Notes under the pieces: model-generated
Database searches by the model: none
Told to the model about the DNA's origin: nothing
The model's input: only the letters and a program-made list of their open reading frames with translations
NCBI RefSeq assembly: GCF_028823615.1
Contig: NZ_JAPEHT010000004.1
Coordinates: 1-51,751, forward strand
DNA length: 51,751 bases
Direction: 5' to 3'
Source: Planococcus sp. A6
GTDB lineage: Bacteria; Bacillota; Bacilli; Bacillales_A; Planococcaceae
Program-made: the position numbers and the translations under genes
Shown: piece after piece, positions 6,917-44,320 of the stretch
Layout: every line of letters starts with the position of its first letter
How positions within the stretch are numbered: the first letter of the stretch is position 1

Positions 6917-7660
6917 ATGACGAAACCATTCGTACCTGTTATATCGATAATGATGAGCATCTTCCTATGCAGTGGCTGTTCTAGCGCTCCGGACGGATTA
7001 GAAGAAGTAGAGGGGACTGGTCTGACCTATAGCGAAAATTTCAATGCTTATGACGGGTTGAATGAGAGAGAACATGTGGAGTTTTATAAACCTGCAGAAG
7101 CACAACCATTGTCTCCATCGATTTTAGGTGAACATCACCTGCTCAAAAAGGGGATCGATTCTGATTTACTGCCTTTCGAAGTAGATGGAGAAAATGCGTA
7201 TGTGGTCACTTCCGAAGACCGAACCGGGAAAGTGATTCATCAAGTTCAGTTGAGCTATCTTGGGAAATCTGAAGAGGGCATTATAGATGAGTTTTTCATC
7301 GTCTCGGTAACTGAAATGGAAAAAAATCCGGTCGAGAATTATGAAGTTGCAGAAGCAACTGATTCGGTCGGAAATCGATTTGATAAACAAGAGCTGAGCG
7401 GGGATGATTTCATTTTCCAGCAAGTGCTGACCACAAATAGTGCTTTATTGTATCGGTATTATGAATATGATGAAGCGGAAGAAAAATTAAATGTGGTCGG
7501 TACCGCCGCTAACGAATTTTATTCCTATCACGATGGATTCGTTTACCACGTGGGTTATTTAATTGATCGACAAAAGAATACTGAGAAGGTACAAAACAAT
7601 ATGCTCAACTTGACGCGTAATATTATTCTAGGAAAAGATACATCCAAAGAAGGAAGATGA
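6917..7660 (+). CDS. Hypothetical lipoprotein
   Basis: 247 residues. A type II signal peptide (MTKPFVPVISIMMSIFLCSG) ends in a lipobox-like CSGC with the acylated Cys at about residue 21. The mature part is hydrophilic and acidic, with no recognised domain, and would sit on the outer face of the membrane. The ATG follows GGAGGAGAGG. A polytopic membrane protein starts 25 bases downstream, so the two are probably co-transcribed and may work together. Confidence 0.8.
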   Translation: MTKPFVPVISIMMSIFLCSGCSSAPDGLEEVEGTGLTYSENFNAYDGLNEREHVEFYKPAEAQPLSPSILGEHHLLKKGIDSDLLPFEVDGENAYVVTSEDRTGKVIHQVQLSYLGKSEEGIIDEFFIVSVTEMEKNPVENYEVAEATDSVGNRFDKQELSGDDFIFQQVLTTNSALLYRYYEYDEAEEKLNVVGTAANEFYSYHDGFVYHVGYLIDRQKNTEKVQNNMLNLTRNIILGKDTSKEGR

Positions 7661-28955: not shown

Positions 28956-29111
28956 ATGAACAAGCAAAAAAAGAAGAACACAAATAAGACTGATTTTTTC
29001 GACGTAATCTTATTTTGGATCCCGGAACTGCTATTTCTACCCTTCAGACTCCTATTTATGGCGTTAAGGGGAATCGTTAGGTTAATTGGGGGATTTTTTA
29101 ATGTCGTCTAA
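28956..29111 (+). CDS. Small basic membrane protein (51 residues)
   Basis: An ATG seven bases after AAAGGGGAA opens a frame of 51 codons. It has a lysine-rich head (NKQKKKNTNK), then FDVILFWIPELLFLPFRLLFMALRGIVRLIGGFF. One long amphipathic or two short membrane helices are predicted. It follows the Nudix gene by 34 bases. The frame, ribosome binding site and composition all fit a real small protein. No family recognised. Confidence 0.65.
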   Translation: MNKQKKKNTNKTDFFDVILFWIPELLFLPFRLLFMALRGIVRLIGGFFNVV

Positions 29112-29174
29112 TTGGCCGGCTTACATGGGTCTGATAAGCTCTTTACGTATTTAGTAAAGTCGTGAAGTGATGAC

Positions 29175-29537
29175 GTGAACCGGTTGTGGAAAGTATTGCA
29201 TAAGTGGATTTTCGAGGAATACGACCAGTTTTCCAATGAATTGGGCTACACGAATTGGAAGATTACTTCAGAAAACACTTTTGGCATTTTTCAAATGGAG
29301 GGAGATGCGTTTTATCATGCTACACAGCTCTCCAACAGCGAATGGGCAGTTTGGAACGATAATGGAGGAGACCCGCCCTATGAATTCCAAGTATTTTCGA
29401 CTTGGGCTGAAGCGATCAGCCATCTCCGAACATTGTTTGAGGAAAGCCAATTGCCTGAAAGCCATTGGCGGCCTGAAGGATTTGATGTGGGAGAAGATGT
29501 TTTTTCAAAAGAGCCAGATCGAGAAAAAATGCTGTAA
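29175..29537 (+). CDS. Hypothetical protein, aromatic-rich
   Basis: 120 residues from a GTG with only a weak upstream site (GAAGTGATG). It is soluble, with many Trp (WKVLHKWIFEEY, NSEWAVWNDNGGDPPYEF, FSTWAEAISHL, SHWRPEGF). The pattern resembles small Bacillus proteins near toxin or immunity loci, but I do not recognise it. It could be an immunity-like protein. The start is uncertain. Confidence 0.6.
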   Translation: MNRLWKVLHKWIFEEYDQFSNELGYTNWKITSENTFGIFQMEGDAFYHATQLSNSEWAVWNDNGGDPPYEFQVFSTWAEAISHLRTLFEESQLPESHWRPEGFDVGEDVFSKEPDREKML

Positions 29538-29570
29538 AAGCACACATAGAGAAATGGGGAATTTAATTTG

Positions 29571-30071
29571 ATGTTACTTGAAGTCATTGTAGTTTTACTC
29601 ATTATTTCATGTTCGCTATTTATACATGAAATGGGACATGCTGTAGCAACGGTCACAGTGAGCAAAAATTCCAAAGCTGAAGTATTTATGGGTTCATGCA
29701 GTAAAGCAAACAAACTACGTCTATCTTTTGGAAGAATTACCTGTTATCTGACCGTCGCCATATATGGCTATTGCGAGTATTTGATCCCAAAAGAGTACCC
29801 AGCGTTTACATACAAGCAAAAACTCTTCTTCTACCTTGGCGGGCCAATCGCATCACTGCTTAGTTTTGTGGCACTGTTCATTGCCTCTCATTTTGTTTCC
29901 GGAGTGGCGGGGAATATCATCATTAATAGCGCAGGCGCAAACTTTTTTCTCTTTATCACGTCATTGATTCCGTGGACTTATCCCCGCTTTTTAGGTGGCC
30001 TTCCGAGTGATGGCTTACAGACTTTGAACTTGATGAAAGCGAATAGAAAACAGCGAAAGTTTATTACGTAA
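29571..30071 (+). CDS. Compact M50-like (site-2 protease fold) membrane protein
   Basis: 166 residues with four predicted helices. HEMGH at residues 19-23 within the first helix, and LGGLPSDGLQTL near residue 145 (the NPDG-like second metal motif), are the M50 intramembrane metalloprotease signature. At this length only the catalytic core is left, without PDZ or CBS domains. The ATG at 29571 follows TGGGGA; a TTG at 29568 directly precedes it. Substrate unknown; possibly cleavage of small membrane proteins or peptides. Confidence 0.78.
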   Translation: MLLEVIVVLLIISCSLFIHEMGHAVATVTVSKNSKAEVFMGSCSKANKLRLSFGRITCYLTVAIYGYCEYLIPKEYPAFTYKQKLFFYLGGPIASLLSFVALFIASHFVSGVAGNIIINSAGANFFLFITSLIPWTYPRFLGGLPSDGLQTLNLMKANRKQRKFIT

Positions 30072-30154
30072 TAAACTGTTGCTTACCTGATCTTTAGAAC
30101 AAATCATTAAAGTGGTAAGAGTGGTCGTTCAAAATACATAAGTAGTGTGTGAAC

Positions 30155-30188
30155 GGGGGAAACTCAAATATGAGTTTTTCCTTTTTTG
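30155..30188 (+). terminator. Terminator after the M50-like gene
   Basis: GGAAACTCA pairs with TGAGTTTTTCC around AATA, followed by six T at 30182-30187. One short bulge is needed. Confidence 0.65.
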
Positions 30189-30296
30189 ATTAGAAATAAA
30201 TTTATAGTGGAGCTTACTTAAGAATTTGCTAGTTATCTCTAAACGATATCCGTATATTTATAATATATCGAACTAGTGCTGTTACAGGAGGGTATT

Positions 30297-30776
30297 ATGC
30301 AAACGATCCATTCAAAAATTGAAATAATGACCTTAGAAGATCGGTTTGAAAACGAATTTGCCCTTATGTATGAAACAAATGTAATTCCTGAATTATTAAT
30401 TGAAACGACAGGAACTTCATATACCAATATCATTAATACTTTGATTGCCCAAAAATATTCCTTAATTGTTTGTTTACCTCGACTACCGGTCTATAAGGAA
30501 CTAAAGAAAGCGGAGGTGCTTAGAGAAAACCAGGCTTTTAAATTGTTGCGAATTCCTGCCGAAGACTATTCTTCTGCACTTGATGAGTTTCTAAAAGACT
30601 TTGAGTATGCTTTTACGTTTTTATGGATAAAGCATGCTTATGAAATCTCTTATGTATTGCCTAACACGAGCCAGGAAAGAATCAAACTTTTAAACTTAGT
30701 AGATAACGGAGTATATAGTTTCTGGATAGAAAATGAGGAATGCATCAGAGCTGTATGGATCGGAGAACCGAAATGA
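30297..30776 (+). CDS. Hypothetical protein coupled to an SMI1/KNR4 gene
   Basis: 159 residues; the ATG at 30297 follows ACAGGAGGG. It is soluble, with FENEFALMYETNVIPELLIETTG and a helical C-terminal half rich in aromatic residues. No recognised family. It overlaps the SMI1/KNR4 gene by ATGA, so the two are translated together; such pairing is usual in immunity gene runs, and a similar role is inferred. Confidence 0.68.
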   Translation: MQTIHSKIEIMTLEDRFENEFALMYETNVIPELLIETTGTSYTNIINTLIAQKYSLIVCLPRLPVYKELKKAEVLRENQAFKLLRIPAEDYSSALDEFLKDFEYAFTFLWIKHAYEISYVLPNTSQERIKLLNLVDNGVYSFWIENEECIRAVWIGEPK

Positions 30777-31303
30777 AGAAACATTACTACAATGGAAGAA
30801 ACTTTTGGCAATGCGATACCAACAATACCAGACCTCTTTATCCATGCAATGATGAAGTCATCGAAAAAGCTGAGTTAGTCTTGGGGATCCGTTTTCCTAA
30901 TTCTTTTAAAAACTTGATGAAAAAGCGAAATGGGGGAGAACTTCGTTACCCATACTTTACTGTTCCCGCATCTAGAGCAAATAGCAGATCAGGTGAGGTA
31001 TATCATTTGCCAAGTATTGAACCTATACATTTTGAAGTGGAAGACACCGGTATTTTATCATCCAAAGAACTGATTACCTCTACAAATGATGAGCGAGGTA
31101 GTACAGCTCTTTCTGACAAGCTCATCGTGCTTTGGACTGATTTTCATCATTGGCTTGTATTTGATTATAAAAATCAAAAAGAAAATCCATCGGTATTATT
31201 GATTGTTGAGAATTACGATTCACCCGAAATAGTTTGGGAGATCATTGAGCTCGCCGAGTCTTTTGATCAATTCCTGGAGCAATTGTTCCTGGAAACGAAT
31301 TAA
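30773..31303 (+). CDS. SMI1/KNR4 family protein (orphan immunity-like)
   Basis: 176 residues from the ATG at 30773 (overlapping the previous stop) behind GGATCGGAG. The SUKH core is visible: DEVIEKAELVLGIRFPNSFK, then LMKKRNGGELRYPYF, and later FHHWLVFDYK and VENYDSPEIVWEIIELAESF. SUKH proteins are the largest class of immunity proteins against polymorphic toxins. No toxin gene is seen in the window. Confidence 0.88.
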   Translation: MKKHYYNGRNFWQCDTNNTRPLYPCNDEVIEKAELVLGIRFPNSFKNLMKKRNGGELRYPYFTVPASRANSRSGEVYHLPSIEPIHFEVEDTGILSSKELITSTNDERGSTALSDKLIVLWTDFHHWLVFDYKNQKENPSVLLIVENYDSPEIVWEIIELAESFDQFLEQLFLETN

Positions 31304-31383
31304 AGCGGTGACTCCCGAATGCTCGCTATATGTTTAGGATTTAGATAGGGCAGTCTCGTGGTGAGAAAGGAAGATTAGAGAAA

Positions 31384-31827
31384 ATGGGAATTACTTGGAG
31401 GCCGCTTTGGTATGGGTTAGATCAAGCTATTGTGGCAGGAGATATTGATTATTATTACCTGTCCGACGACGTTGCAGAATTTGCGAATGGTGAAGTAAGC
31501 GCTGAGGATCAGGAAGTGTACGCTAAAATAGTGAAGATTATCCATCAGGAGATTGGCAAAGTGCGAGGCATCCTTACAGATGAATTGAGTTATAGAGTGT
31601 TTCTTGAAGATGGAGATATTATCCGGATCGATGCAGAAGAAAATATCGGATTGGTAGAATATCCAGCCGATTGCGGAATAAGTGAATGGACTTTCGAAGT
31701 GGAAATCGAGATCCTGAAGTTTACTGGATACTCATCTGAGGAGCGGATGACACTTATGACGGATAAGGAGTTCCAGGTTTGGCAGGCAGCAAGGGAAGCA
31801 AAACACAATTGCATGTTGGACAACTAG
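31384..31827 (+). CDS. Hypothetical acidic protein
   Basis: 147 residues from an ATG after AAAGGAAG. Strongly acidic and soluble (DIDYYYLSDDVAEFANGEVS; LEDGDIIRIDAEENIGLVEY). No family recognised. Its position directly after the SMI1/KNR4 gene and its composition suggest another immunity-type protein, but nothing in the sequence proves it. Confidence 0.65.
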   Translation: MGITWRPLWYGLDQAIVAGDIDYYYLSDDVAEFANGEVSAEDQEVYAKIVKIIHQEIGKVRGILTDELSYRVFLEDGDIIRIDAEENIGLVEYPADCGISEWTFEVEIEILKFTGYSSEERMTLMTDKEFQVWQAAREAKHNCMLDN

Positions 31828-31875
31828 AGAGTCACAGTATTCTAAGGAACTGCAGGCAGTGAAACGGAGCGATGG

Positions 31876-32298
31876 ATGATGGAATACTTTTATTTGTTTT
31901 TAAAAATTTCACTCGTAGGTTCGACAATTTTATTCAGCGATTTTATTTTTGGCCAAATTGGCTGGTGGTTCGCAGTTGTCATGATTCTTGCATTATGGGC
32001 ATCAGGTTATTTCGATAAAAAATCGATTCAAATAAAAAAACAAAAACTGACTGAAAGGTTTTCGATTCTAAAAACCTTGGACAGCGGACAATCAGTCAAT
32101 GTCGAACTAAAAAATGGCGAGTTGTTTTCGGATTACAATTTCAGTTCTTTCAATGAGGACGAAATAACTGTCGCTAAAAAACTAGAGCGAGAACAAATTA
32201 CGCAAGGAGAAGATAACGTTCGGGAGATCAAGTTCACAAAAATTCAGTCAATCACGAGCCCTGATGTTCAAGTTGCAAGAAGAAGACGGCGATTTTAA
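31876..32298 (+). CDS. Membrane-anchored hypothetical protein
   Basis: 140 residues. Two helices (about 3-23 and 29-45) are followed by a cytoplasmic tail of about 90 residues. The tail has a small beta-rich domain (SGQSVNVELKNGELFSDYNF) and ends in RRRRRF. ATG codons at 31876 and 31879 both suit CGGAGCGAT. It may be an SM-like or PH-like tail by appearance; no family is claimed. Confidence 0.65.
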   Translation: MMEYFYLFLKISLVGSTILFSDFIFGQIGWWFAVVMILALWASGYFDKKSIQIKKQKLTERFSILKTLDSGQSVNVELKNGELFSDYNFSSFNEDEITVAKKLEREQITQGEDNVREIKFTKIQSITSPDVQVARRRRRF

Positions 32299-32589
32299 AA
32301 GATAGTTTGGATGAAGCTATAAACAATGAACAATCTCTTTGCAACGTTCGTAAAAGTGCCTTCGATTATACGAACGTTCGTCAACTATTTTTATACGTTT
32401 GCGAACGCCGGTTTACATGATTTTCAGCACTTTCAAAGTCGTTCGAAAAGGTGTACTTTTACGAACGGTTTTATAGTACTGAGATTTAAGAAATAGCCTA
32501 AGTCTTTCAATATAATAATTATATTCAATTTATTGCTTTTAAGGACAAGAGGTTATAAGGAGGTGGCACTTCTAACTTTCATAAGAGAC
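32299..32589. repeat. Noncoding region with a 128-bp inverted-repeat element
   Basis: No gene is seen. The left arm AACGTTCGTAAAAGTGCC (from 32343) and the right arm, whose complement reads AACCGTTCGTAAAAGTACACC (ending at 32470), form an interrupted inverted repeat. A perfect 12-bp palindrome ACGAACGTTCGT lies at 32370-32381, and further GAACG copies lie between. This fits a short palindromic noncoding element (MITE- or REP-like). The far right end carries AAGGAGG at about 32559 without a matching ORF. Confidence 0.55.
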
Positions 32590-33162
32590 TTATTGACGAG
32601 TAAGATACCCGGATTTTATCAGATTTGCCTTATCTGAATCCATAAATTCTTTGTCCTTTTGAATAAACTCTTCCGATTTTTCCATCTCGCTGCACATAAC
32701 ACCAATGTTATCTTCAAAAATAGATTCGTGACTATGAACGAATTCCTTTTCAAACGTTTCTTGGCCTTCCAGGAAATTAAGTAGTTCATGATTATCTATG
32801 TATGAAAATGCTCTAGGAACTGTAAAGTTAATGTCCATATTTTTGATGGCAGCAACAGAAATAGGATTTTTAAACAATTGAAAGCTTTCTATTGGCACAA
32901 TTGCCCGTTCCTTATTCTCTATACAGATAGCCATTCTTTCATTGATCGTAGAATTCTCATAAAACATTGATTTAATATCAATCGGATTTTGAGGTTTGTC
33001 CAATTCTAGAATACCGATAAATTCGCTGACAGGTTTGGTCAAATAAAGATAAGCCCTTACAGATTCTTTGGAAAAAGATTTCCTGTATTCGTATTTTTTG
33101 ATTCCGTATAAAATAGGTCTAAAATAATCTGGATGAAATGATAAAATGATGTTTTTTTTCAT
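32590..33162 (-). CDS. ASCH/PUA-like domain protein
   Basis: 190 residues. The opening MKKNIILSFHPDYFRPILYG followed by IKKYEYRKSF matches the ASCH-type pattern (S-x-x-P-x-(Y/F)-x-x-x-I-x-x-G-x-K-x-x-E-x-R), a beta-barrel fold linked with RNA or modified-nucleoside binding. The second half (from about residue 110) is an unrecognised acidic helical extension with a KEFMDSDKANLIKSGY tail. The ribosome binding site on the minus strand (GGGAGCG) is moderate. Confidence 0.75.
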   Translation of the reverse strand: MKKNIILSFHPDYFRPILYGIKKYEYRKSFSKESVRAYLYLTKPVSEFIGILELDKPQNPIDIKSMFYENSTINERMAICIENKERAIVPIESFQLFKNPISVAAIKNMDINFTVPRAFSYIDNHELLNFLEGQETFEKEFVHSHESIFEDNIGVMCSEMEKSEEFIQKDKEFMDSDKANLIKSGYLTRQ

Positions 33163-33243
33163 TAGAAACGCTCCCTCAACTTATTTAAAAGGTATATCGT
33201 CTATAGTAACACTGATATATATAATTAAAGAGCAAGCAAATGG

Positions 33244-33272
33244 AGTTTACATATCATGAGGTTATCGGAAGC
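33244..33272. other. dif-like XerC/XerD site, copy 1
   Basis: AGTTTACATAT (33244-33254), a seven-base spacer CATGAGG, and TTATCGGAAGC (33262-33272). Read on the minus strand, GCTTCCGATAA and ATATGTAAACT match the XerC arm (ACTTCCTATAA/ACTTCCTAGAA) and the XerD arm (TTATGTAAACT) of Firmicutes dif, with 9 of 11 and 10 of 11 identities to the closest forms I recall. The spacer is one base longer than the usual six. Confidence 0.5.
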
Positions 33273-33281
33273 TCCAAAAAC

Positions 33282-33330
33282 AAAAAGGGATAGAAGATGC
33301 GACTCGATTAGCATCTTCTATCCCTTTTTA
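33282..33330. terminator. Bidirectional terminator next to dif-like copy 1
   Basis: AAAAAGGGATAGAAGATGC (from about 33283) pairs perfectly with its complement ending near 33329. Flanked by A- and T-runs, it can stop transcription in both directions, including that of the minus-strand gene at 33427. Confidence 0.88.
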
Positions 33331-33426
33331 TTTGAAAGTGTCCCTTTATGCAAGATTCCATTACAAAGAAACATTTTTATTCTAATCAAATAGTAGTTGG
33401 TTTTCTATTTCAAGGCCTTCTATCTT

Positions 33427-33831
33427 TCAATTAATCGAGTTGTGAATTTCATGTAGTATATCTTCGAATTCTTTATAGTAAATTTGTTTTTCTTCATCCG
33501 TAAGTTTTCCAAAATCACCGCTAATGATGCCAGCTACTTCTTGAAGTTCCGAAAATTCTGTGGACACTCCTAAATTTTTCATTTCATTACCGTCAATCGA
33601 GTTGAGTGCAATAAAAGTAGTTTCTTTTTCAATATTCTCTTCATCAAGTGTGCTGCCATTCCATCGATTCCAAGCAGTTGCTATATATTCTTTTGCATTT
33701 CCTTCAGTAGTCGCTTCTACTGTCGCTTTCTCTGTAGAAATATTTTCTTCCGGCACTAGATTAACCCAAGCGATCAACAGTACCAACATAGAGAAAATAG
33801 CAATAGGAATACCAATCATGATCTTCTTCAT
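33427..33831 (-). CDS. Membrane-anchored protein sharing the sensor-like domain of the adjacent anti-sigma factor
   Basis: 134 residues. The ATG at 33831 follows TAGGAGGGG. One N-terminal helix (about residues 4-24) anchors an outer domain. Its last 85 residues align by eye with the C-terminal end of the anti-sigma factor encoded at 34581. Shared positions include EY(I/V)..A.N.W, S.EF..LQ..A, and L(T/S)DEEK......(E)F(E)..L.EIH. It is divergent from the sigma gene and could modulate the same signal, for example by competing for a ligand or contacting the anti-sigma domain. No known family was recognised. Confidence 0.72.
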   Translation of the reverse strand: MKKIMIGIPIAIFSMLVLLIAWVNLVPEENISTEKATVEATTEGNAKEYIATAWNRWNGSTLDEENIEKETTFIALNSIDGNEMKNLGVSTEFSELQEVAGIISGDFGKLTDEEKQIYYKEFEDILHEIHNSIN

Positions 33832-33952
33832 CAGACCCCTCCTACGTATACCCACTATTGTAACACAGGATATTCCATTTTTTATCCAAATACTCTGTTT
33901 TCACAAATGCTATTTCAAGATTATAGAGATACGCGATACAAAGTTCCGATTT

Positions 33953-33981
33953 TGAAACCATAGAGCAGTGAGACTCGTCTT
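33953..33981 (+). promoter_or_regulatory. ECF-type promoter of the sigma operon
   Basis: TGAAACC at 33953-33959, a 16-bp spacer, and CGTCTT at 33976-33981 match the -35 TGAAAC and -10 CGTC consensus of Bacillus ECF sigma factors. It lies 61 bases before the sigma gene, so the sigma factor probably autoregulates. Confidence 0.75.
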
Positions 33982-34042
33982 AGGGACAGCTCATTTCACC
34001 TTGGATTAAAATACTATGTAAAGATAGAAGGGGGGCAGCACA

Positions 34043-34591
34043 TTGACCGACGAAAACAATATGCCTTTAAAAATTCAAAAAGAAGCCTGGTTAGAAAATC
34101 TAATGGATCAATATGGCGATCGTCTAACAAAGCTAGCCTATAGTTATTTGAAGGATTGGGGAAGGTCACAGGAAGTTGTCCAAGATGTATTTTTGACCTG
34201 TTACCAGCACTACGATACATATGAAGAAATTAACTCCTATAAAGCGTGGATTTATAGAATCACCATTAACCGCTGTAAAGATGTCCTGAAAAGTTCTTGG
34301 GCCAAACGGGTTGTCCTGAATAATCAGTTGTTTCAGTATATGCACACGAAGGAACCTACACCGCACATGGCATCGCTTCAAAGAGAAGGAGATGAGGAAC
34401 TGGCGGATTCCGTATTGTCTCTTCCAATCAAATATCGTGAAACCATTCATCTTCATTACTACGAGAATTTGTCGATACCTGAGATGGAAGCTCTGTTAAA
34501 CATCAAACAGAACACCTTGAAAACACGTTTGCGAAGAGGCCGAAAACTACTGGGAGAGACTATCAAAAGAGGTGATGTATATGAAGGATAG
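34043..34591 (+). CDS. ECF RNA polymerase sigma factor
   Basis: 182 residues from a TTG behind AAGGGGGG. Region 2 is seen at about residues 18-85 (YGDRLTKLAYSYLKDWGRSQ, EVVQDVFLTCYQHYDTYEEI, and AWIYRITINRCKDVLKS). Region 4 is seen at about 123-172 (LPIKYRETIHLHYYENLSIPEMEALLNIKQNTLKTRLRRGRKLL). It directs RNA polymerase to promoters of the GAAAC/CGTC type. It overlaps the anti-sigma gene, giving coupled translation, and has a matching promoter in front. Confidence 0.93.
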   Translation: MTDENNMPLKIQKEAWLENLMDQYGDRLTKLAYSYLKDWGRSQEVVQDVFLTCYQHYDTYEEINSYKAWIYRITINRCKDVLKSSWAKRVVLNNQLFQYMHTKEPTPHMASLQREGDEELADSVLSLPIKYRETIHLHYYENLSIPEMEALLNIKQNTLKTRLRRGRKLLGETIKRGDVYEG

Positions 34592-35333
34592 ATTAAGTGA
34601 GTATCGTGATGCTATGAACAAAAGCGTTTTTAAAAATCAGCAATTCACTGAAAGACATAAACAAGCGATCTTAGCGAAAATCAATGAACAGCCACAGCCC
34701 CGAAAAACAGGAAGTTGGTTCCCTCGTGCAGCAAGCGTCGCTTTTGTTATACTCTTCGTTATTGTCGGTGCTTACTTCCTGAGAGAACAATTAGAATTAA
34801 CACCTGAAAGTGTAGCTGAACCTTTGCTTGAACAGACCCCTGCTAAAAACAATCAAGAAAATCTTCCAGTTGATGAAAGAGATGAAGCAGAGAAAGTACA
34901 AGGAGAACCTGGAACATCCTCGTTAGAAGAACAATATAATGAGCATGGTGATCAAATTTATTCGAAAGAGGAACTGGCAAATCCTAAAAGTATTGCCTAT
35001 CAGATTGAATATAGTGAATATGAGAGCTTACCAGAGTATGTTTCTGCTTTATATAACAATTGGTTTAACGAAAATTCTACCGTAAGGAAAGGAACTGACA
35101 GCGAGACGGCAGAGCAGGTGATGGCCTCTTCAAGTGTTTCTTATATTAATTATTTTGAAGGCGCTATCCAATCCAAGGGAATGAGCGAAGAGTTCGATAA
35201 GCTACAGCAAATCGCTTTTGATTTAACAAGCAGTCCTGACACTCTTTCCGATGAAGAGAAAATAAAAGAGAAGACTGATGAATTTGAAGAGCATTTAGGA
35301 GAAATTCACGCTACTTTTAAAGAAGATTATTAA
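34581..35333 (+). CDS. Membrane-spanning anti-sigma factor with duplicated-type outer domain
   Basis: 250 residues. The ATG at 34581 follows GAGGTG and lies inside the end of the sigma gene. Residues 1-45 are the cytoplasmic sigma-binding part, and about 48-67 form one membrane helix. A low-complexity acidic linker follows (to about residue 120). The outer C-terminal domain from about residue 150 is shared with the protein encoded at 33427. The pairing with the sigma gene defines it as an anti-sigma factor; the signal it senses is unknown. Confidence 0.85.
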   Translation: MKDRLSEYRDAMNKSVFKNQQFTERHKQAILAKINEQPQPRKTGSWFPRAASVAFVILFVIVGAYFLREQLELTPESVAEPLLEQTPAKNNQENLPVDERDEAEKVQGEPGTSSLEEQYNEHGDQIYSKEELANPKSIAYQIEYSEYESLPEYVSALYNNWFNENSTVRKGTDSETAEQVMASSSVSYINYFEGAIQSKGMSEEFDKLQQIAFDLTSSPDTLSDEEKIKEKTDEFEEHLGEIHATFKEDY

Positions 35334-35465
35334 ATGATAGTCAGCTAAGAAAGACAAATAAAAGATGAAATAAATCATGTAGAGATATGTCGTGAAAATA
35401 TAGTTGAATCCCTATGATCGACAATTCGAAAATTTACTTTTAAAAACTATAATGAGGTGCATTTC

Positions 35466-36059
35466 TTGATTTTAAACTACCAGTTAACAGTCGACGATTT
35501 ATTCGCGCTCCAGAAAAATTATTTTCGCACCAGTAAGTACCATATTAATAGAGGCAAACTAGCTTTTATTGTCTTGTTGTTGTTTTCCTATCTCACTTTT
35601 AACTCCTTGTTGCTGAAGATCTTGCCGGGAAATGTCTCTCCTGATTTAATTGGTCCGGTCTCGATAGGAGGGGGAATCCTTTTGGTTTTGATTCTGCTGC
35701 CATTCGTCCGAGACTTGTACTTTAAACTACAGGTTTGGCGATTTAAAATAGCTTTTAAGCGATTAAAAAACAATGGGTGGCCGAAGGAGTGCATCACCAA
35801 ACTGACTCCTGAAGGCATCGAGCTGCATATTCACAACAGCCAACTCGAAGGCAAGACTCAATTGAACTGGAGTGCATTTCAGAAGGTAGGAGAAGACGAG
35901 CAACGATTTTTCCTCTATCACACGGATATGGACGCTGTTGTTCTTCCAAAGCAAATAGACTCTTCGAATGAAGAAAGCCGTAAAGCACTGAGAGTTTTGC
36001 TCACACGACAACTTGGTCATTTACTTAACTCAAACTCGAAGAAAAAAGCTAATGTTTAA
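35466..36059 (+). CDS. YcxB-like membrane protein
   Basis: 197 residues from a TTG five bases after GAGGTG. It shows an N-terminal beta hairpin (LNYQLTVDDLFALQKNYF), two membrane helices (about 30-48 and 58-76), then a cytoplasmic domain with LTPEGIELHIHNSQLEGKTQ, NWSAFQKVGEDEQRFFLYHT and VVLPKQ. This is the YcxB-like pattern. Function unknown. It lies in the sigma module and may be a target of it, though no ECF promoter was seen in front. Confidence 0.8.
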   Translation: MILNYQLTVDDLFALQKNYFRTSKYHINRGKLAFIVLLLFSYLTFNSLLLKILPGNVSPDLIGPVSIGGGILLVLILLPFVRDLYFKLQVWRFKIAFKRLKNNGWPKECITKLTPEGIELHIHNSQLEGKTQLNWSAFQKVGEDEQRFFLYHTDMDAVVLPKQIDSSNEESRKALRVLLTRQLGHLLNSNSKKKANV

Positions 36060-36140
36060 TAGATGGGGCCGAACAGCATCTGGGAGAAGCTTATAAAGAG
36101 ACGATCATTGCCACAACTTACAGAGAGTGAATTTTAAATG

Positions 36141-36169
36141 GGCCAACCACAAGGGTTGGTCTTTTTGAT
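36141..36169 (+). terminator. Terminator after the YcxB-like gene
   Basis: GGCCAACC at 36141-36148 pairs with GGTTGGTC at 36154-36161, followed by five T. Confidence 0.85.
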
Positions 36170-36405
36170 ACTTTAGTTTCTATTGTTCAGAGAAGTGTAT
36201 TTTTACGGGCGGTTTGAAATTTCTTATCTATTTGTGCTTTGAGCTATAATTGGCCATTGAATAAGAAATTATATAAATTTATGTAACGAAAAAAGAGAAA
36301 ATTGTTTCTGAATCGATAATCTCTCTTAATCAGCGGAGCCTTTTTGCTTTTGGAAACTTCTAGATAAAGAAAACGTTATATGAATATCGGCAAAGGAGAA
36401 TTTAA

Positions 36406-36954
36406 ATGAAGAAGAGAAAGTTAAGTCTCATCCTAATGGTTTTTAGTTCATTCTACTTTGCGATGCGTCTTTTGATGAAAATCGCCATGATAGACAGAAA
36501 TTATGCTTTTGTTTTCAATGGAAGTGATCTGGAACTGGTCTTGCCCCCATACGACCTTCTATTCGTTCTCATATTCTTTATCGGTATGTATACGTATTTC
36601 AAAGGCGTTCTGGCAATGCGGTATGTAGCAATAGTTCTCGCTATATTTTTTATTCCGTTTACGTTGTTTTTTTCGGTTCAATATCGTATCGCTGTTAACG
36701 ATCAATATAGCAGCTTTGTTGGAACCGGCGCAGAACATCTTCTGGTTATTGAGCATATTGCTGGGCTTCATCCAAAGCAGGGAGATCCGCAGGACATATA
36801 CTTGTTTGAAAAGGAAAATGCATTCATTTATAAAAAAACAGGCCAGTCAGAAATACAGAGAAAGGGAACTTCCTTTTCCAAGCAACCTAAATTAAGCTTT
36901 GAAAATGACAAGGCGATAATTGAAATAGGAGAAGAGTCTATACCCCTTAATTAA
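36406..36954 (+). CDS. Hypothetical membrane protein
   Basis: 182 residues with three predicted helices in the first 105 (about 6-27, 47-68 and 74-97). A hydrophilic tail follows, containing EHLLVIEHIAGLHPKQGDPQ and a beta-rich end. The ATG follows AAAGGAG. It lies just inside the right-hand dif-like site. No recognised family. Confidence 0.68.
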   Translation: MKKRKLSLILMVFSSFYFAMRLLMKIAMIDRNYAFVFNGSDLELVLPPYDLLFVLIFFIGMYTYFKGVLAMRYVAIVLAIFFIPFTLFFSVQYRIAVNDQYSSFVGTGAEHLLVIEHIAGLHPKQGDPQDIYLFEKENAFIYKKTGQSEIQRKGTSFSKQPKLSFENDKAIIEIGEESIPLN

Positions 36955-37157
36955 GGCAGAAGGAGAAAACCTTCTCTTTTTTCATGTACGCTCTATTTTA
37001 AAAGTGTTACATCAGTTTCTATTAACATTTGGATGCAGAAGGGAAATACCCGCGGTGTCCATTATTTCCATATACGGAATGCCTGCGGGGAGATACAAAT
37101 TTGTATTTAAAGTTATATGGATTATATCTATGTCTATATTAATAATTTTGGGAATCG

Positions 37158-37193
37158 TTGAGAGCGTAAAATATCTTGAGAGCGTAAAATATC
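37158..37193. repeat. Two exact 18-bp tandem repeats
   Basis: TTGAGAGCGTAAAATATC occurs at 37158-37175 and again, without any change, at 37176-37193. The unit is a multiple of three, so the duplication adds six residues to the overlapping frame. Confidence 0.9.
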
Positions 37194-37243
37194 TTGTGTA
37201 AATAACAAAACACAAACTTATTAATTAACATAGCATACCAAAG

Positions 37244-37271
37244 AGTTTACATATGACGAATTATCGGAAGC
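37244..37271. other. dif-like XerC/XerD site, copy 2
   Basis: AGTTTACATAT (37244-37254), a six-base spacer GACGAA, and TTATCGGAAGC (37261-37271). Total length (28 bp) and 11+6+11 layout are those of a dif site. Both 11-bp arms are identical to those of copy 1 at 33244, and the orientation is the same. A terminator hairpin follows at the same distance in both places. Confidence 0.55.
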
Positions 37272-37282
37272 TACAAATATAG

Positions 37283-37328
37283 AAGGGAGAGTAGAAAGCG
37301 GTAAGCCGAATCTTCTCTCCTTTTGCTA
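37283..37328. terminator. Terminator-like hairpin next to dif-like copy 2
   Basis: GGGAGAGTAGAAAGC at 37285-37299 pairs imperfectly with the sequence ending TCTTCTCTCC at 37320, followed by TTTTGC. Confidence 0.6.
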
Positions 37329-37603
37329 TTTTTGCCTAAAAAGTACATTTACAGCCGCTCTTAATATGGAGAAATATGTAACAACGATTGTAGATGTGAT
37401 TTCTTTATCCTAGATTTCTTTTTTTCCTTTAATTATGAAAAAAATCATATTATTTTTCATTTCCAAGTTATTATGATGACATTATTTTCAAAGGAGTTTC
37501 ATATGTTACTTAGAATATGGGAGTCTTAACCAAGTTTTAATACTGGGTTTTAGGGGAATGGGATATATGGTGCATTAAATAGAAAAAAAGGGGAGGAACA
37601 CTA

Positions 37604-38926
37604 ATGACGAAAAATTCGTGGTCAAGATTAATGTCCCTCACAGTTCTAAGTTCTGTGTTAGCTTTGGCAGCATGTGGCAATGAAGATGCTTCAGACGAAG
37701 AGTCAACGAATGACTCTGATGCTACAACAGAAGAAAGTACAGATGAGGGCACTACAACAGAAGAAGGTGCAGACGAGGGCGCAAATGAAAGTGCAGAAAC
37801 TGAACCCAAAGTCACTGAGTTTGAACCAGCATTTCCAGAACAAACTAGAGCACCTGCAGTAGAGACTGAAACAGAACTTAATGAAGAAGTTGTGGTTGAA
37901 GGTCTTGGCGTGACTTGGGGTATGGTAGAGTTCGAACCAAACCGCTTACTTGTGACGCAGAGAGATGCAGCAGAACTTCTTATTGTAAACCTTGAAGATG
38001 GTTCTGTTTCAGATCCAATCGAAGGTACACCAGAAGTGAATAACTCAGGTCAAGGCGGTTTGCTTGATGTAGCCGTTGCACCTGATTTTGACGAATCAAG
38101 AGCAGTATTCATGACGTTTTCTCAAGATCTTGAAGGCGGTACCGTCACTGCTGTCGGTAAAGGTGTGTTATCAGAAGATGAATCCTCACTCGAAGATTTT
38201 GAAGTCATCTTCCAAGCAACACCGGCATATGATGGCGACTTACACTATGGCGGTCGTATTATCTTCGATGAGGAGGGCAACCTATTCCTAACAACTGGTG
38301 AGCGTTCAGACGATCCAATTCGTGAACGTGCACAAGACTTGGACGCTTACTTAGGTAAAGTCATTCACATTACACAAGACGGGGAACCAGTAGATTCAAA
38401 TCCATTTGTCGAAGATGAAGACGCACTGGATGGTATTTACAGCTATGGTCACCGTAATATTCAAGGCATAGACTACAACCCTGAAACAGGAGACTTATGG
38501 ATTGTTGAATTCGGTCCACAAGCTGGGGATGAACTGAATATCATTGAACCAGCGAACAACTATGGATGGCCAATTGTTTCTTATGGTATCGAGTACACTG
38601 GTGAATTAATCAATGATGGTATTTCAGAGCACGAAGCGCAAGGCTTTGTGGAACCAAGATATTATTGGGATCCAACAAGTGCACCAAGTGGTATGTCATT
38701 CTATGATAATGACGCAATCCCTGAATGGGAGAACAATTTGTTTATCGGTGGTTTAGCCCCGAACTATATTGTACGTGTCGTTATTGAAGATGACATCATC
38801 GTTGGAGAAGAACGACTATTGACTGATGAAGTTCAACGTTTCCGTGACATTCTTGTAACTGAAGATGGCGCGCTTATTGCGAGCACTGATGGCGGTCTGA
38901 TTTACCAGATTACTGCAGCAGAATAA
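37604..38926 (+). CDS. PQQ-dependent-type sugar dehydrogenase lipoprotein (GSDH/YliI-like)
   Basis: 440 residues. A type II signal peptide ends in LAAC (Cys24). Residues 25-75 are a Glu/Thr/Ser/Asp-rich linker with repeated TTEE-STDEG-like units. The remainder is a six-bladed beta propeller of the glucose/sorbosone dehydrogenase family: GQGGLLDVAVAPDF, DLHYGGRIIFDEEGNLFLTTGE (catalytic His), and YGHRNIQGIDYNPETGDLW followed by GDELNIIEPANNYGWP. Such enzymes oxidise aldoses outside the cell with PQQ. The start follows a GGGGAGGAA site. Monocistronic, with a strong terminator. PQQ use is inferred from family. Confidence 0.9.
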   Translation: MTKNSWSRLMSLTVLSSVLALAACGNEDASDEESTNDSDATTEESTDEGTTTEEGADEGANESAETEPKVTEFEPAFPEQTRAPAVETETELNEEVVVEGLGVTWGMVEFEPNRLLVTQRDAAELLIVNLEDGSVSDPIEGTPEVNNSGQGGLLDVAVAPDFDESRAVFMTFSQDLEGGTVTAVGKGVLSEDESSLEDFEVIFQATPAYDGDLHYGGRIIFDEEGNLFLTTGERSDDPIRERAQDLDAYLGKVIHITQDGEPVDSNPFVEDEDALDGIYSYGHRNIQGIDYNPETGDLWIVEFGPQAGDELNIIEPANNYGWPIVSYGIEYTGELINDGISEHEAQGFVEPRYYWDPTSAPSGMSFYDNDAIPEWENNLFIGGLAPNYIVRVVIEDDIIVGEERLLTDEVQRFRDILVTEDGALIASTDGGLIYQITAAE

Positions 38927-38997
38927 TTTATTATTCTCTAAAAGCATCTACTCTCATATCAGCGTCATTAATTTGAGCGAATGAAAATATTAAAGAA

Positions 38998-39036
38998 GCA
39001 GGCATTCATGTATTCCCATGAATGCCTGTTTTTTTG
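38998..39036 (+). terminator. Terminator after the sugar dehydrogenase gene
   Basis: CAGGCATTCATG at 38999-39010 pairs perfectly with 39017-39028 around TATTCC, followed by seven T. Confidence 0.92.
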
Positions 39037-39224
39037 CTGTTTGAACAGGTTGAAGGTGTAAAGGCTATAGGAGAAGGGGCTTGAAACCATCAGCATCTCT
39101 CATTGTCTTTTATGGTATAATTACCCAAATTGATAGAAGTTTATAGATTGCTGAAATACGAATACATTTTCATTAATTATTTTATGTATGCTTCTTAGGC
39201 TTTTTTATGAAGGGATGTTTTCTT

Positions 39225-39509
39225 ATGAAATTAACCATCATACTTCTGCGTTTAGTATACCTTCCTATAGCTGGACTTTTTATACTTCCCATATCTTATT
39301 GGTTCGCAGCAGGCTTCATCTCTGAATATGGACCGGAAGCACCTGAAATTATCTTTCCACTCTGGCTAATACCGGCTGCAGTGTTCGTGCTAGGTGCAGT
39401 CATACAATGTTGGAGGAAGTATTTTTGGTTAGGAATAGGTATTACGGTGTTCTCGTTTATTTTGTTCTTTACAGACATCATTCCTTATAGAGCAATCAAT
39501 TTGTTTTGA
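39225..39509 (+). CDS. Small membrane protein
   Basis: 94 residues with three predicted helices (about 3-25, 44-62 and 68-87). The ATG at 39225 follows GAAGGGATG; an ATG at 39207 has no site in front and overlaps it. No recognised family. Confidence 0.7.
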   Translation: MKLTIILLRLVYLPIAGLFILPISYWFAAGFISEYGPEAPEIIFPLWLIPAAVFVLGAVIQCWRKYFWLGIGITVFSFILFFTDIIPYRAINLF

Positions 39510-40419: not shown

Positions 40420-41242
40420 ATGGCCATCATTATGGAAGCTTCCAATTGTTTGTTGTTATCAACTGACCAAAAAAAGTCGGAAAGCCTGTGGCGCGACGAT
40501 TCGTGTTTCAAGTTTATGTTCTCGTTGAAAGGGTCGATGCATTACCAAAGCAGCCGCAACGATTTAACCATAACTGACCAGGAATTTATTGTGTTCAATC
40601 CACATGATGGGCACCGGCAGCTTGCAGTAGACGATCACAAGTTTTTGGTTGAACTGGATGCCATGTTTCTCAGGGAAGCGGTGACGGCCATTACCGGAAA
40701 CGACAGAGAACTGTATTTTGCGCAAACTCCTCAGAAAAATCCCCTCATTGAACAATGGGTTCATTTTGTGCAGCAATACATGATGCTGGAAAAGGAAAGC
40801 GGAAATGGTTCTTCTGAAATTTTCTTGGAGCACAGCTTTGCCCAATTGAGTTTATTGCTCACGAAGACCGCAATCGGAACGCATTCACCCGATATGACCA
40901 CTGATCCTTTTCGAACAGTCCAGCCCGCGCTTTTTCAAGTGATGGCAGCGTTAAAAAAATGATTTTCAACATGCGTGGACATTGGATGAGATGGCAGCGA
41001 TTTTGGACATCAGCAAGTTCCAATTGGCGCATCTATTTAAAGAAAAAATCGGCGTTTCGCCGTATTCGTGGCTGCAGCTGTACCGTCTCGTGAGGGCTCA
41101 GGAGCTATTGCTGCAAACAAACCGGACCATCACAGATATCGCTTATGATTGCGGATTTTCCTCTATCGGTTCGTTTAATCAATTATTCAAGCGCCTTTAT
41201 GGCTTTTCGCCGCGCATTTTCCGAAAAGAGGGCTCGAATTAA
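40420..41242 (+). pseudogene. AraC-family regulator with a one-base frameshift in a run of seven A
   Basis: The ATG at 40420 follows AAAGGGTGG. An N-terminal cupin-like sensing domain (FKFMFSLKGSMHYQSSRNDL, FIVFNPHDGHRQL) leads to LFQVMAALK, and the frame stops at 40962. Dropping one A from 40953-40959 joins it to NDFQHAWTLDEMAAILDISK and the twin-HTH AraC domain (FQLAHLFKEKIGVSPYSWLQ; ITDIAYDCGFSSIGSFNQLFKRLYGFSP). So the original protein had about 273 residues. It is divergent from the SDR gene, which was probably its target. Its 3' end overlaps the convergent MFS gene by 60 bases. Confidence 0.82.
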
Positions 41243-42426
41243 GTAAAATAGTGCCACAATAACCATCAGGCTGCCACACATTGTAAACAGTTTCTGAATG
41301 CCGATGACTAAAGCAAGTGCTCCAAATATCGCCAGTGACAAAATATTTGAGCCGTACAATAGCACCGCATTAAAGCTGAAAGCACGGCCGAGCATATTTG
41401 CGGGCACAAGGGTTTGAATCAAATACACCCTCGCTAGGCTGGACAGCGGCAAACCGGCCGCTGCAATGAACACTCCTGCAAAATAAAACGGCAGGTAGCT
41501 CGCGAATCCAAGTACCACGAGGCCGAGTCCCCAAACGACAGAGCCCCATAAATAAAGCGAAAGGTCAAGGTTTTCCAGAAAAACGGAATGGCGATATTGG
41601 TCAAAATTACCCCGAGCCCGTACCAGCCTAACAAAAAGCTGTAGATTTCTTGGCCGCTCCCTGGAAAACGAACAAGGAGCAACAACAGCAAGCCGACTTG
41701 CCAAACCCAGGTGTTGAAAAAGACCATCCAAAACGTCGCGATGAACAAATGTTTCACTGTCCCTTCGCGTTTAACCCACATCAAGAAAACCCCAATCGAA
41801 TGGAAGAGCCCATCTCTTTTTGTCTCATTCAAATTCTCTTTACCTATTAGCTCCACCCAATGAACTTTCAGGATAAGAATGGCGCTCACGAGATATGTCA
41901 ATGCATCCACAGTGTAAAAATGGATGGCATGTCCGGCATTCAATAAGCCAATCGCAAAAAGCGGCGTGGTAACTTGAACGCCTCTTGTCACCGTATCGAA
42001 GAGACTATTGACTGTCGTTTGTTGCTCCACAGGCGTGATGAGCGGCAACATGGCTCGGTAAGCAGGGTTGTAAAAACAACCCAGACTTTGAACCATAAAA
42101 GCAGCCACCAGCAAATGCCAGAAAGCCAATATGTTCAATTGATGCAATACGACCAATGACAGGATGAGAGGAATCCGTAAAAGATCAATCGCTACGAGCA
42201 TCCGTTTTTTATCCACACGGTCCGCAAATGCTCCGCCAATCAAGCCGAAGAGCAAGTACGGCATTGCTTGTGAAATCGCGATTATCGTCGTCAAAGCGGC
42301 GGACTTTGTCAAATCATAGGAAATAAAAAGAAAGGCCAGGCCAGCTAATACATTGCCTAGCTGAGAAATGCCGGCTCCAGCCAAGTAATACAAAATGTTT
42401 TTGTTTTTCAGTACATGTCGATACAT
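41183..42426 (-). pseudogene. MFS transporter with a one-base frameshift
   Basis: The ATG at 42426 follows GGGAGGTG; a GTG at 42435 overlaps that site. Twelve-helix MFS, with motif A as GGAFADRVDKKRML near residue 62. The frame is correct to RFIYGALSFG and then reads nonsense. The other frame continues WGLGLVVLGFASYLPFYFAG to a normal end. One base is missing in the TTTGGGG stretch (plus-strand 41529-41535). The intact protein would have about 414 residues, resembling MFS drug or enterobactin-type exporters. Confidence 0.82.
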
Positions 42427-42644
42427 AACAATCACCTCCCGTTCAGGTTACGCTGAATTTTAAGGAGGCTCTATACGCATCTTGCCGCTTGATTTCGCAA
42501 GAATTCGATAGTTTAAAGATAAGAGCGCTGCAGATTCGCTGTGCTCTTGTTTGGTTAAAAAGCCATAATGAAGTCGTTGTTGCGAATTTTTAAAGCTATA
42601 GTTTAATAAGGATTACCAAGTTTTACAAAAAATAAAAAATAATC

Positions 42645-42673: not shown

Positions 42674-42696
42674 TATACAAAGGGAGGATGAGGCAG

Positions 42697-43245
42697 ATGC
42701 AGCACGATGAAGAAATAATTTCTGCGGCGATTCAAGGAGACCGAATCGCCCTTCAGAATTTATTGAAATCCGAAAAAGAAAAATTATACAGAATGGCCTA
42801 TACATATGTGAAAAATGAAGACGATGCTCTCGAGGTTTTTCAACAAACTGTACTCCAGGCTATCGAATCAGTGCATCAAGTGAAAGAACCGCATTATTTT
42901 TCGACTTGGCTGGTCCGCATTTGCATAAATAAAGCACTGGCGTTTTTAAAGAACAATAAAAAGTTAATCTACATGGATGAAGTGGAGGAGCGGAATTTGG
43001 ATAATGGTGTCACCGCCGATGTGGCCGAACAAATGGATGTGTCGAACGCATTGGATTCGTTACCTGAAAAATTTAAGACAGCACTGATGTTGAGATATTA
43101 TCAAGACTTTACAGTCAAGCAGATCGCCACCGTAATGGAATGTCCAGAAGGCACAGTGAAAACAACTCTTCACCGTGGATTGGCGATGTTGAAAAAGGAT
43201 TTGAAAGGTGTGTATGCAGATGAACGACAAAGAGATTTTAATTAA
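42697..43245 (+). CDS. ECF RNA polymerase sigma factor
   Basis: 182 residues. The ATG at 42697 lies nine bases after GGGAGG; the ATG at 42688 touches that site. Region 2 is LYRMAYTYVKNEDDALEVFQ through STWLVRICINKALAFLKNNK, and region 4 is LPEKFKTALMLRYYQDFTVKQIATVMECPEGTVKTTLHRGLAMLKK. The gene overlaps the downstream anti-sigma gene, which is the usual arrangement. It resembles SigV/SigM-like ECF factors in general layout; the exact group is not assigned. Confidence 0.93.
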   Translation: MQHDEEIISAAIQGDRIALQNLLKSEKEKLYRMAYTYVKNEDDALEVFQQTVLQAIESVHQVKEPHYFSTWLVRICINKALAFLKNNKKLIYMDEVEERNLDNGVTADVAEQMDVSNALDSLPEKFKTALMLRYYQDFTVKQIATVMECPEGTVKTTLHRGLAMLKKDLKGVYADERQRDFN

Positions 43246-44320
43246 AAATGCTATGCAAAATATCAAAGTGCCAGAAGACTGCTTGGAGTCACTCATTGAT
43301 GATGCCTTTTATGAAACGTCCAAGCCTAAAAAGAACAAACGGAAAAAGTGGCTGATACCAGCCATCGCTGCGGCGGTTCTATTTATCGGTTTGTTTACAG
43401 CAACTCTTTCTGCGTCTCCAGTTCTTGCAAATTATATGGCACAGGTACCCGTCATTGGAAATGTCTTTTCCATTTTTGCCGAAGAAGAAGAAGGACTCAT
43501 ACAATACGAGCGCTTCAGTGATTACGTGAAATTAACCCAATCCAGCAATGGTGTAACTATTTCTATAGACAAAGCTGTATATGACGGAACAAATGTCACT
43601 TTCACTTATACGGTAACTTCAACTAAAGAATTAGATGACTCTGCTCACCTAACTGGTTTTCCGCAATTGCTCGAAGGAGAAGGTCCTACAGGCTCCATGG
43701 ATTGGAAATTGGCAGAAGGTTCATTGATTGGCATCAATACCATTCCGCATCTTGATGAAGAAGCAGCTCAGGTCAACGTGATTTGGGAACCAGAGAGCCT
43801 ATATACGGATGACGGAGAGATTGAAGGCGATTGGAAGTTTGAATTCGCGGTCGATCAGTTAAAAACAGATCCAATTATCTTAGACGAAATCAACTCGGAA
43901 GGCGGCGTTTCTGTTCACTTTACTGAAGTAACATTTACGGATATTGCCGTGAATGTCGCCTACCAACAGTTGGTGGACCCAGCTTTACTGGAAGTATGGG
44001 AAGCTGTGGAAGTCGAGCTGATTGCTGCGGATGATTTGGGGAATGTCTATCTAGTTCCTTATAATGGTGGGACCACTTACGGCGATGCCCGGACTCGGGA
44101 AGATTTTTTCTGGACAGCCACAATGAGAGGGCTTGATCCTCTTGCCACGTCATTAACCTTTTATCCCTTTGGCCATATCAGCAGAATGGAAGAAGGCAAA
44201 GAGCCGGAATCGATTCGAATAGAATTTGATGCACTTGAAATCAATATGCTGGAAGGGACCTATCAAATTATTGAAGATCCCGAGTTCCCGGTTTATGAAG
44301 AAGAGGAAGAAGAGACGTGA
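43214..44320 (+). CDS. DUF4179-containing anti-sigma factor
   Basis: 368 residues from the ATG at 43214, five bases after AAAGG. Residues 1-45 are cytoplasmic and bind the sigma factor by analogy. One helix lies at about 46-65. The outer part begins with the DUF4179 pattern (SPVLANYMAQVPVIGNVFSI) and continues as a beta-rich region to a Glu-rich end. Coupled to the sigma gene by overlap. A strong terminator follows. Confidence 0.88.
   Translation: MQMNDKEILIKNAMQNIKVPEDCLESLIDDAFYETSKPKKNKRKKWLIPAIAAAVLFIGLFTATLSASPVLANYMAQVPVIGNVFSIFAEEEEGLIQYERFSDYVKLTQSSNGVTISIDKAVYDGTNVTFTYTVTSTKELDDSAHLTGFPQLLEGEGPTGSMDWKLAEGSLIGINTIPHLDEEAAQVNVIWEPESLYTDDGEIEGDWKFEFAVDQLKTDPIILDEINSEGGVSVHFTEVTFTDIAVNVAYQQLVDPALLEVWEAVEVELIAADDLGNVYLVPYNGGTTYGDARTREDFFWTATMRGLDPLATSLTFYPFGHISRMEEGKEPESIRIEFDALEINMLEGTYQIIEDPEFPVYEEEEEET

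Follow-up and report, generated by a model that had tools for sequence, protein, structure and literature searches.

Does a 4-kb gene segment lying between two dif-like sites in Planococcus constitute a mobile module, and if so, to what kind of system does it belong? The segment occupies positions 33244-37271 of a 51,751-nucleotide stretch of Planococcus sp. A6 (contig NZ_JAPEHT010000004.1; the whole stretch is referred to as the window) and carries an extracytoplasmic function (ECF) sigma factor gene with its neighbours. The two-arm pattern AGTTTACATAT-N-TTATCGGAAGC is exact at 33244-33272 (7-bp spacer CATGAGG) and at 37244-37271 (6-bp spacer GACGAA), both on the + strand. This confirms an earlier reading of the DNA letters (the original prediction), which had described two copies with identical arms in direct orientation and an 11+6+11 layout for the right copy. 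None of 100 dinucleotide shuffles of the window matched the two-arm pattern, and for spacers of 6 or 7 bp the window held no third copy even when up to 3 mismatches were allowed. The two sites are genuine and not due to chance. The segment is probably a mobile gene module within a chromosomal cassette array bounded by Xer-type core sites (cores), and comparison of genomes supports the view that it is one of many genus-wide gene cassettes delimited in this way.

The exact 28-mer with a free spacer occurs three times in the Planococcus sp. A6 assembly (265 contigs, 3.52 Mb), and looser patterns were required. The inner 18 arm bases are found at eight places in this assembly, with more at up to 3 mismatches, and were matched in 43 of 46 genus genomes, A6 included; the reversed control gave none. 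Elsewhere in the family, 10 of 215 genomes had one or two matches (53 of 261 overall). We fetched 85 loci (1.27 Mb), picked for holding sites or the gene that flanks the module, and scored sites at up to 3 mismatches. They contain 245 sites, compared with none in the reversed sequences, and the spacer is 6 bp long in 176, 7 bp in 63, 8 bp in 4 and 5 bp in 2. All but one of the 245 lie outside open reading frames (ORFs) of at least 100 aa, although such ORFs span 67.5% of the loci. Cores were also found on plasmids. In a separate record scan, 55 of 80 among the matches listed belonged to Planococcus or Planomicrobium; the other 25, and viral matches, look mostly like chance. Four sites lie within 8 kb in Tetzosporium hominis (L256; G, C and L numbers denote genomes, contigs and loci), two in Chryseomicrobium and two in Cytobacillus (L213, L226), at up to 3 mismatches and over 3-8 kb; these genera may hold real arrays.

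Homology between loci ends preferentially at the cores. Alignments of at least 200 bp between loci gave 3292 usable ends, each alignment being counted from both loci, and the control consisted of sites shifted round the locus. On this basis 300 ends fell on a core, where 200 shifts gave 36 on average and never more than 74, and 146 of 239 inner sites carried an alignment end (mean 18, maximum 33 in 100 shift trials). Homology ends cluster at the two core edges, with offset 0 for the XerC side and 26-28 for the XerD side. Alignments running from site to site between different genomes numbered 20 of 823, representing 12 distinct modules and 19 genome pairs, with none in 1000 shifts. Module identity exceeded background, taken from conserved regions of the same genomes, in all 18 comparisons with a background (17 genome pairs), the excess ranging from 0.7 to 24.9 points. 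Six modules were 96-99% identical against backgrounds of 73-92% (99.2/84.8, 98.6/91.8, 98.5/84.0, 98.2/73.3, 96.7/83.1 and 96.1/81.8). When the junctions of four modules were inspected, the change occurred at the core and the outer flanks were unlike between copies. Entire modules thus appear to have moved between species.

The original prediction had named two outcomes that would tell against it, many copies always linked to terminators and never at boundaries, or synteny of the segment in all relatives. Neither came about. The sites are numerous and often have a hairpin after them, yet the inner-site and site-to-site counts above place them at segment boundaries. As to the second, among the matches listed the sigma gene is matched at 90% only in G001, which has it twice, and other genomes match it at 66-80% along stretches that are shorter or weaker; the flanking GSDH-family gene or a paralogue was matched in at least 41 of 46 genomes. 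Homology of the right flank starts from core 2 (query 7044-7046) in six genomes, G005, G029, G033, G012, G004 and G019.

The likely dif site of the A6 genome, AGTTTACATAATATAAATTATAGGAAGT (C36:1460-1487), agrees with the window arms at 19 of 22 positions, bearing out the predicted match of the arms to dif; it lies on a different contig from the window. Ordinarily dif serves in the separation of sister chromosomes. A single dif match was found in each of 38 of 46 genomes (at up to 2 mismatches). The XerC arm TTATCGGAAGT, present in 17 of the 38 dif-bearing genomes, differs from the window arm in its last base alone, and module cores differ from dif chiefly in the spacer and the final base of the XerD arm. 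Arms are labelled XerD and XerC by reference to the dif sites of Bacillus subtilis and Escherichia coli. The genome's own XerC and XerD exceed the respective NCBIfam cut-offs, their genes lying, by reading of the neighbours, between trmFO and hslV (xerC) and between fur and deoB (xerD). We infer that the host XerC and XerD recombine the cores.

A different tyrosine recombinase could act on the cores in their place, for example the ~187-aa type of small Planococcus plasmids. This cluster comprises 12 proteins on 11 small or plasmid-like contigs, including C63 of A6, which resembles Planococcus plasmids and has a core with the spacer CCCGAC; nine PF00589 matches occur in the A6 genome, among them a second short one on C80. 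Such a substitution seems improbable to us, given that the core arms match chromosomal dif nearly base for base and that, within the 85 loci, to which this count applies, the short recombinase is confined to those 11 contigs. Several of the 12 copies are accompanied by a CCCGAC or CCCGAA core, one ~187-aa copy lying at L032:342-905.

A second element recurs in the arrays. A ~130-bp sequence, which we term the head, was matched over at least 80 bp in 27 of the 85 loci, including the window at 32345-32474. All 27 heads share the orientation of the nearest array and lie on its XerD side, 0.5 to 11.6 kb before the nearest site; in two plasmid loci a site is also found on the opposite side of the head. 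Alignment of the heads reveals two clear inverted-repeat subsites and a weaker third, in the order III (the weak one), II, I, the last being a 26-bp palindrome save for its two middle bases. A divergent 205-aa resolvase gene abuts the head in L111, L130, L136 and L153, with a PF00239 match in the sole one scanned, and the end of contig C242 of A6 probably carries the same gene beside a head; elsewhere among the loci no such gene was seen beside the head. With three inverted-repeat subsites and the adjoining gene in four loci, probably five, the head is read as a putative res site of a serine resolvase. A LexA-type reading was dropped because the spacing expected of such a motif is missing. No exact 26-bp subsite I was found in viral contigs and no head in phages. 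The head also lies beside a resolvase gene in two annotated plasmids. It is matched at 88% over 133 bp in the Staphylococcus aureus plasmid pSA8589 (L322:5228-5360), adjoining a recombinase gene and near cfr, and again near cfr in the one E. coli plasmid examined, the match itself being shared by other enteric records; this may hint at the source of that segment.

One half of the last head subsite, a res-I-like motif (at least 15 of 21 positions), follows the core on the XerC side in 92 of 243 sites, compared with 2 on the XerD side and 4 in random stretches. This raises the possibility that a serine resolvase captures modules at res-I-like sites, with the Xer cores as passengers. Among alignments that reach into the head after 300 bp or more of upstream sequence, 15 of 16 end where the head ends inwards (8 locus pairs); the larger figure of 69 ends there includes alignments barely longer than the head, and only the recount requiring upstream length was used. 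Secondary ends also fall near the motif end, 48 of them on the XerD side, and the motif end is an end point in 78 of 823 alignments, a figure without a shift control. Capture at the motif is nevertheless unlikely: core ends outnumber motif-type ends by 192 to 48 on the XerD side, and the 20 core-to-core alignments compare with no motif-to-motif alignment. The Xer and resolvase systems seem to meet in these arrays, with Xer boundaries the commoner.

The sites are strikingly uniform in direction. Neighbouring sites are in direct orientation in 159 of 165 cases, and 117 of 118 sites in 26 genomes, counted on dif-carrying contigs only, are oriented from the XerD arm to the XerC arm towards dif. 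This count used two slightly differing patterns, one covering the genomes up to part of G029 and the other 17 genomes from G028 on. In 12 near-closed chromosomes, 91 of 92 sites point towards dif, the exception being the site at 1786710 in G045. Since only 578 of 910 ORFs near sites are on the strand of the site, gene direction does not account for this polarity. A translocase invariably approaching from the side of the origin would be one explanation; another would be selection against harmful rearrangements. The dif of G045 (C1:1568393) is reversed relative to that of G028 and the arrays still point to it, as after an inversion across the terminus. None of the eight dif loci examined has another site within ~5 kb of dif, though one site lies 4.7 kb off in G003.

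Spacers also follow an order. Four classes were set post hoc: A (CGnnGC-like), B (CA...), C (GA...) and D (T...). The order A-B-C-D-A holds for 96 of 159 neighbour steps and its reverse for 14, whereas 5000 within-array shuffles gave 44.6 forward steps on average and at most 64. Forward steps exceed reverse steps in 19 of 25 genomes, with 6 ties and none reversed. The total counts orthologous arrays repeatedly; with one array per genome, means of 31.5 forward and 6.9 reverse steps were obtained out of 59.4. Such an order could result from an exchange that needs like spacers on the left and right, as module exchange in Acinetobacter does (PMC13141974). We tentatively raise, as a possible but doubtful extension, a chromosomal cassette exchange in which classes A-D would be mutually poor partners in a fixed order, modules would be swapped in place by two like-site crossovers, uniform polarity would let an origin-to-terminus translocase meet the XerD arm first, and the res-like head would keep arrays directional and found new ones. 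In-place swapping through like-site crossovers is also how laboratory heterospecific lox and FRT sites work.

Each unit has the same order: core, hairpin, often a res-I-like motif, genes and the next core. A terminator-like hairpin is present on the XerC side in 167 of 243 sites, the corresponding counts being 21 for the XerD side and 36 for random intergenic DNA, and both window cores have one on this side, as had been noted. The 152 slots between sites hold 417 ORFs of at least 80 aa in 289 clusters. Among the few proteins scanned, the families included ECF sigma factors, CadD (TIGR00779), heavy-metal ATPase, GNAT, Hsp33 and CAAX-protease; four scanned cargo proteins gave no family match. 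A CadD-like gene by a core pair (L004:11094-11774) contains an in-frame tandem duplication of ~19 residues. In a rival reading the cores would belong to a family of terminator-associated repeats that serves transcription, and module boundaries would be produced by homologous recombination between repeats. This would fit the hairpin bias but is very unlikely. XerD-side homology ends at 26-28 bp, the core end, ahead of the hairpin, in 95 of the 126 ends counted, so that crossing over seems to involve the 28-bp core rather than a ~100-bp repeat; polarity towards dif is nearly complete among the sites (117 of 118), whereas 578 of 910 ORFs close by are on the strand of the site; and 76 of the 243 sites have no terminator-like hairpin in the identical test.

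In the mobile-module reading, a unit would extend from core to core, opening with the XerC arm of one and closing with the XerD arm of the next. Between them would lie a hairpin terminator in most cases, then in many a degenerate res subsite I, and then the genes. Host XerC and XerD would act on the cores: a direct pair would recombine to excise a circle, which could insert at another core, or alternatively two crossovers, at cores whose spacers are similar, could exchange a module. The hairpin would insulate adjacent modules, the res-like head would mark the start of the array, and the serine resolvase may trim or join arrays. The cargo of the window module would be an ECF sigma signalling cassette.

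Several observations weigh against this reading. No alignment end was found at 93 of the 239 inner sites, and 3 of the 18 modules are less than 4 points above background, which itself covers only 1.2-11.9 kb per pair. The automatic search for empty sites returned two rows, one of them with a site at both ends (G028 versus G011). The evidence is a comparison of genomes that includes no same-species strain pair, and no recombination event was observed. Among loci that extend 4 kb or more ahead of the first site, 14 of 35 have no head in the fetched stretch; in one of these 14, L137, the stretch stops just short of a matched head. At the window itself, right-flank homology in G001, G037, G020, G042, G041 and G023 begins only at query 7187-7240, past core 2 and its hairpin. 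Lastly, the two window spacers are unlike in length and sequence, and pdif recombination in Acinetobacter requires identical or nearly identical ones (PMC13141974, available in part).

The closest known systems are the dif modules of Acinetobacter, to which the original prediction had likened the segment. There, in the available parts of the two accounts used here, 28-bp dif-like sites bound arrayed modules, also on the chromosome (the dif module island of strain M10, one module of which contains a small serine recombinase gene; PMC12907356). The sites there are inverted relative to one another, C modules alternating with D modules (PMC13141974, PMC12907356), and single modules are proposed to be exchanged where the left and right spacers are similar (PMC13141974). 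The likeness holds in that the Planococcus modules are discrete units common to several genomes by comparison, bounded by ~28-bp sites with 11-bp Xer-like arms and a 6-bp spacer, and arrayed on the chromosome too. It fails in orientation, the sites being nearly always direct and not alternating. The res-like head, the XerC-side hairpin at most cores, the polarity towards dif and the spacer order were not met with in the available parts of the Acinetobacter accounts. The Planococcus system appears to work like dif modules, yet we do not count it as a member of the Acinetobacter type because its sites do not alternate in orientation.

Other likenesses are more distant. Integron arrays likewise start from a head element, and recombination sites separate their directional cassettes; in Planococcus the boundaries lie on dif-like cores and the head is res-like (attC and an integron integrase were not searched for). 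The res sites of Tn3-type and plasmid serine resolvases are likewise ~130 bp long with three subsites, and some of our loci share the divergent resolvase gene; the Planococcus element differs in heading a gene array and in leaving lone subsite-I-like copies after many Xer cores. Integrative mobile elements exploiting Xer (IMEX) integrate at chromosomal dif itself. The Planococcus modules would similarly exploit host XerCD, but their sites lie away from dif, which stood alone in the eight loci examined.

The predicted novelty of a chromosomal, Gram-positive version stands in part: limited searches of the PubMed Central literature found no Gram-positive dif modules among the titles listed, whereas chromosomal dif modules are already published for Acinetobacter (PMC12907356, available in part). 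Arrays as such are known from Acinetobacter; chromosomal Gram-positive arrays with polarity, spacer order and a res-like head are apparently new. If the mobile-module reading is true, Acinetobacter is not alone in capturing genes with the machinery that resolves chromosome dimers, and such capture also moulds chromosomes in a Gram-positive genus, outside the setting of resistance. The polarity towards dif and the ordered spacers make it testable how the identity of a spacer guides the choice of Xer partner and whether Xer recombination far from the terminus is under the control of translocase direction.

The features of the window module are listed in Table 1. The predicted pair of sites is real but not isolated, being a single slot of a longer array family of which the res-like head is a structural part. 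The predicted gene content was also recovered, with Pfam support for the sigma factor and the YcxB-like protein; the small protein resembles the putative anti-sigma factor at 32% identity over 93 aa (E 1e-7, a single comparison). Pfam gave no match for the small protein, the putative anti-sigma factor or the second membrane protein, and Rfam none within 29000-39500.

Table 1 Features in and around the ECF sigma module of the window
Feature	Position	Strand	Basis
Array head, ~130-bp element	32345..32474	+	One of 27 matches of at least 80 bp in 85 loci; aligned consensus
Dif-like Xer core 1, class B spacer CATGAGG	33244..33272	+	Module homology in G001 and G016 begins at first base of core (query 3045)
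Terminator-like hairpin, XerC side of core 1	33282..33333	+	Self-inverse match
Degenerate res subsite-I-like sequence after core 1, weak	33334..33359	+	By eye against the counted motif, no separate score
Small protein	33427..33855	-	C-terminal stretch in common with putative anti-sigma protein
ECF sigma factor	34043..34591	+	Pfam Sigma70_r2, Sigma70_r4_2
Putative anti-sigma factor	34572..35333	+	Position and hydrophobic stretch by eye
YcxB-like membrane protein	35457..36059	+	PF14317
Orphan res-I-like motif within module, after small hairpin	36194..36214	+	Motif match
Membrane protein	36406..36954	+	Outside homologous stretch of G001:C10 copy; 140-bp piece matched in G001:C1
Dif-like Xer core 2, class C spacer GACGAA	37244..37271	+	Right-flank homology begins here in six genomes
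Terminator-like hairpin, XerC side of core 2	37281..37326	+	By eye
Flanking gene, GSDH family, outside module	37604..38926	+	PF07995

Homology of the window module ends at ~36065 against the G001:C10 copy and at ~36184 against the G001:C1 copy. Given the end near 36065 and the orphan res-I-like motif, this motif may mark a former internal boundary, and two older modules may have fused to form the 4-kb segment.

At two contig ends of the A6 assembly (C260 and C215; the end of L014 and the start of L015), exactly 55 bp are common, ending inside a core, after which the sequences diverge. The pair suggested live recombination but was not counted: at up to 3 mismatches the assembly has these 55 bases at no third place, which makes an unassembled short repeat just as likely. 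Outside the module, the window contains a second sigma-like gene within 42688-44320, which apparently clusters with the ECF sigma factor (cluster c2, two members on the contig) and is followed by a long ORF that is maybe its anti-sigma gene. What looks like a single frameshifted MFS transporter gene is split at 41183-42435 between two ORFs that overlap in different frames.

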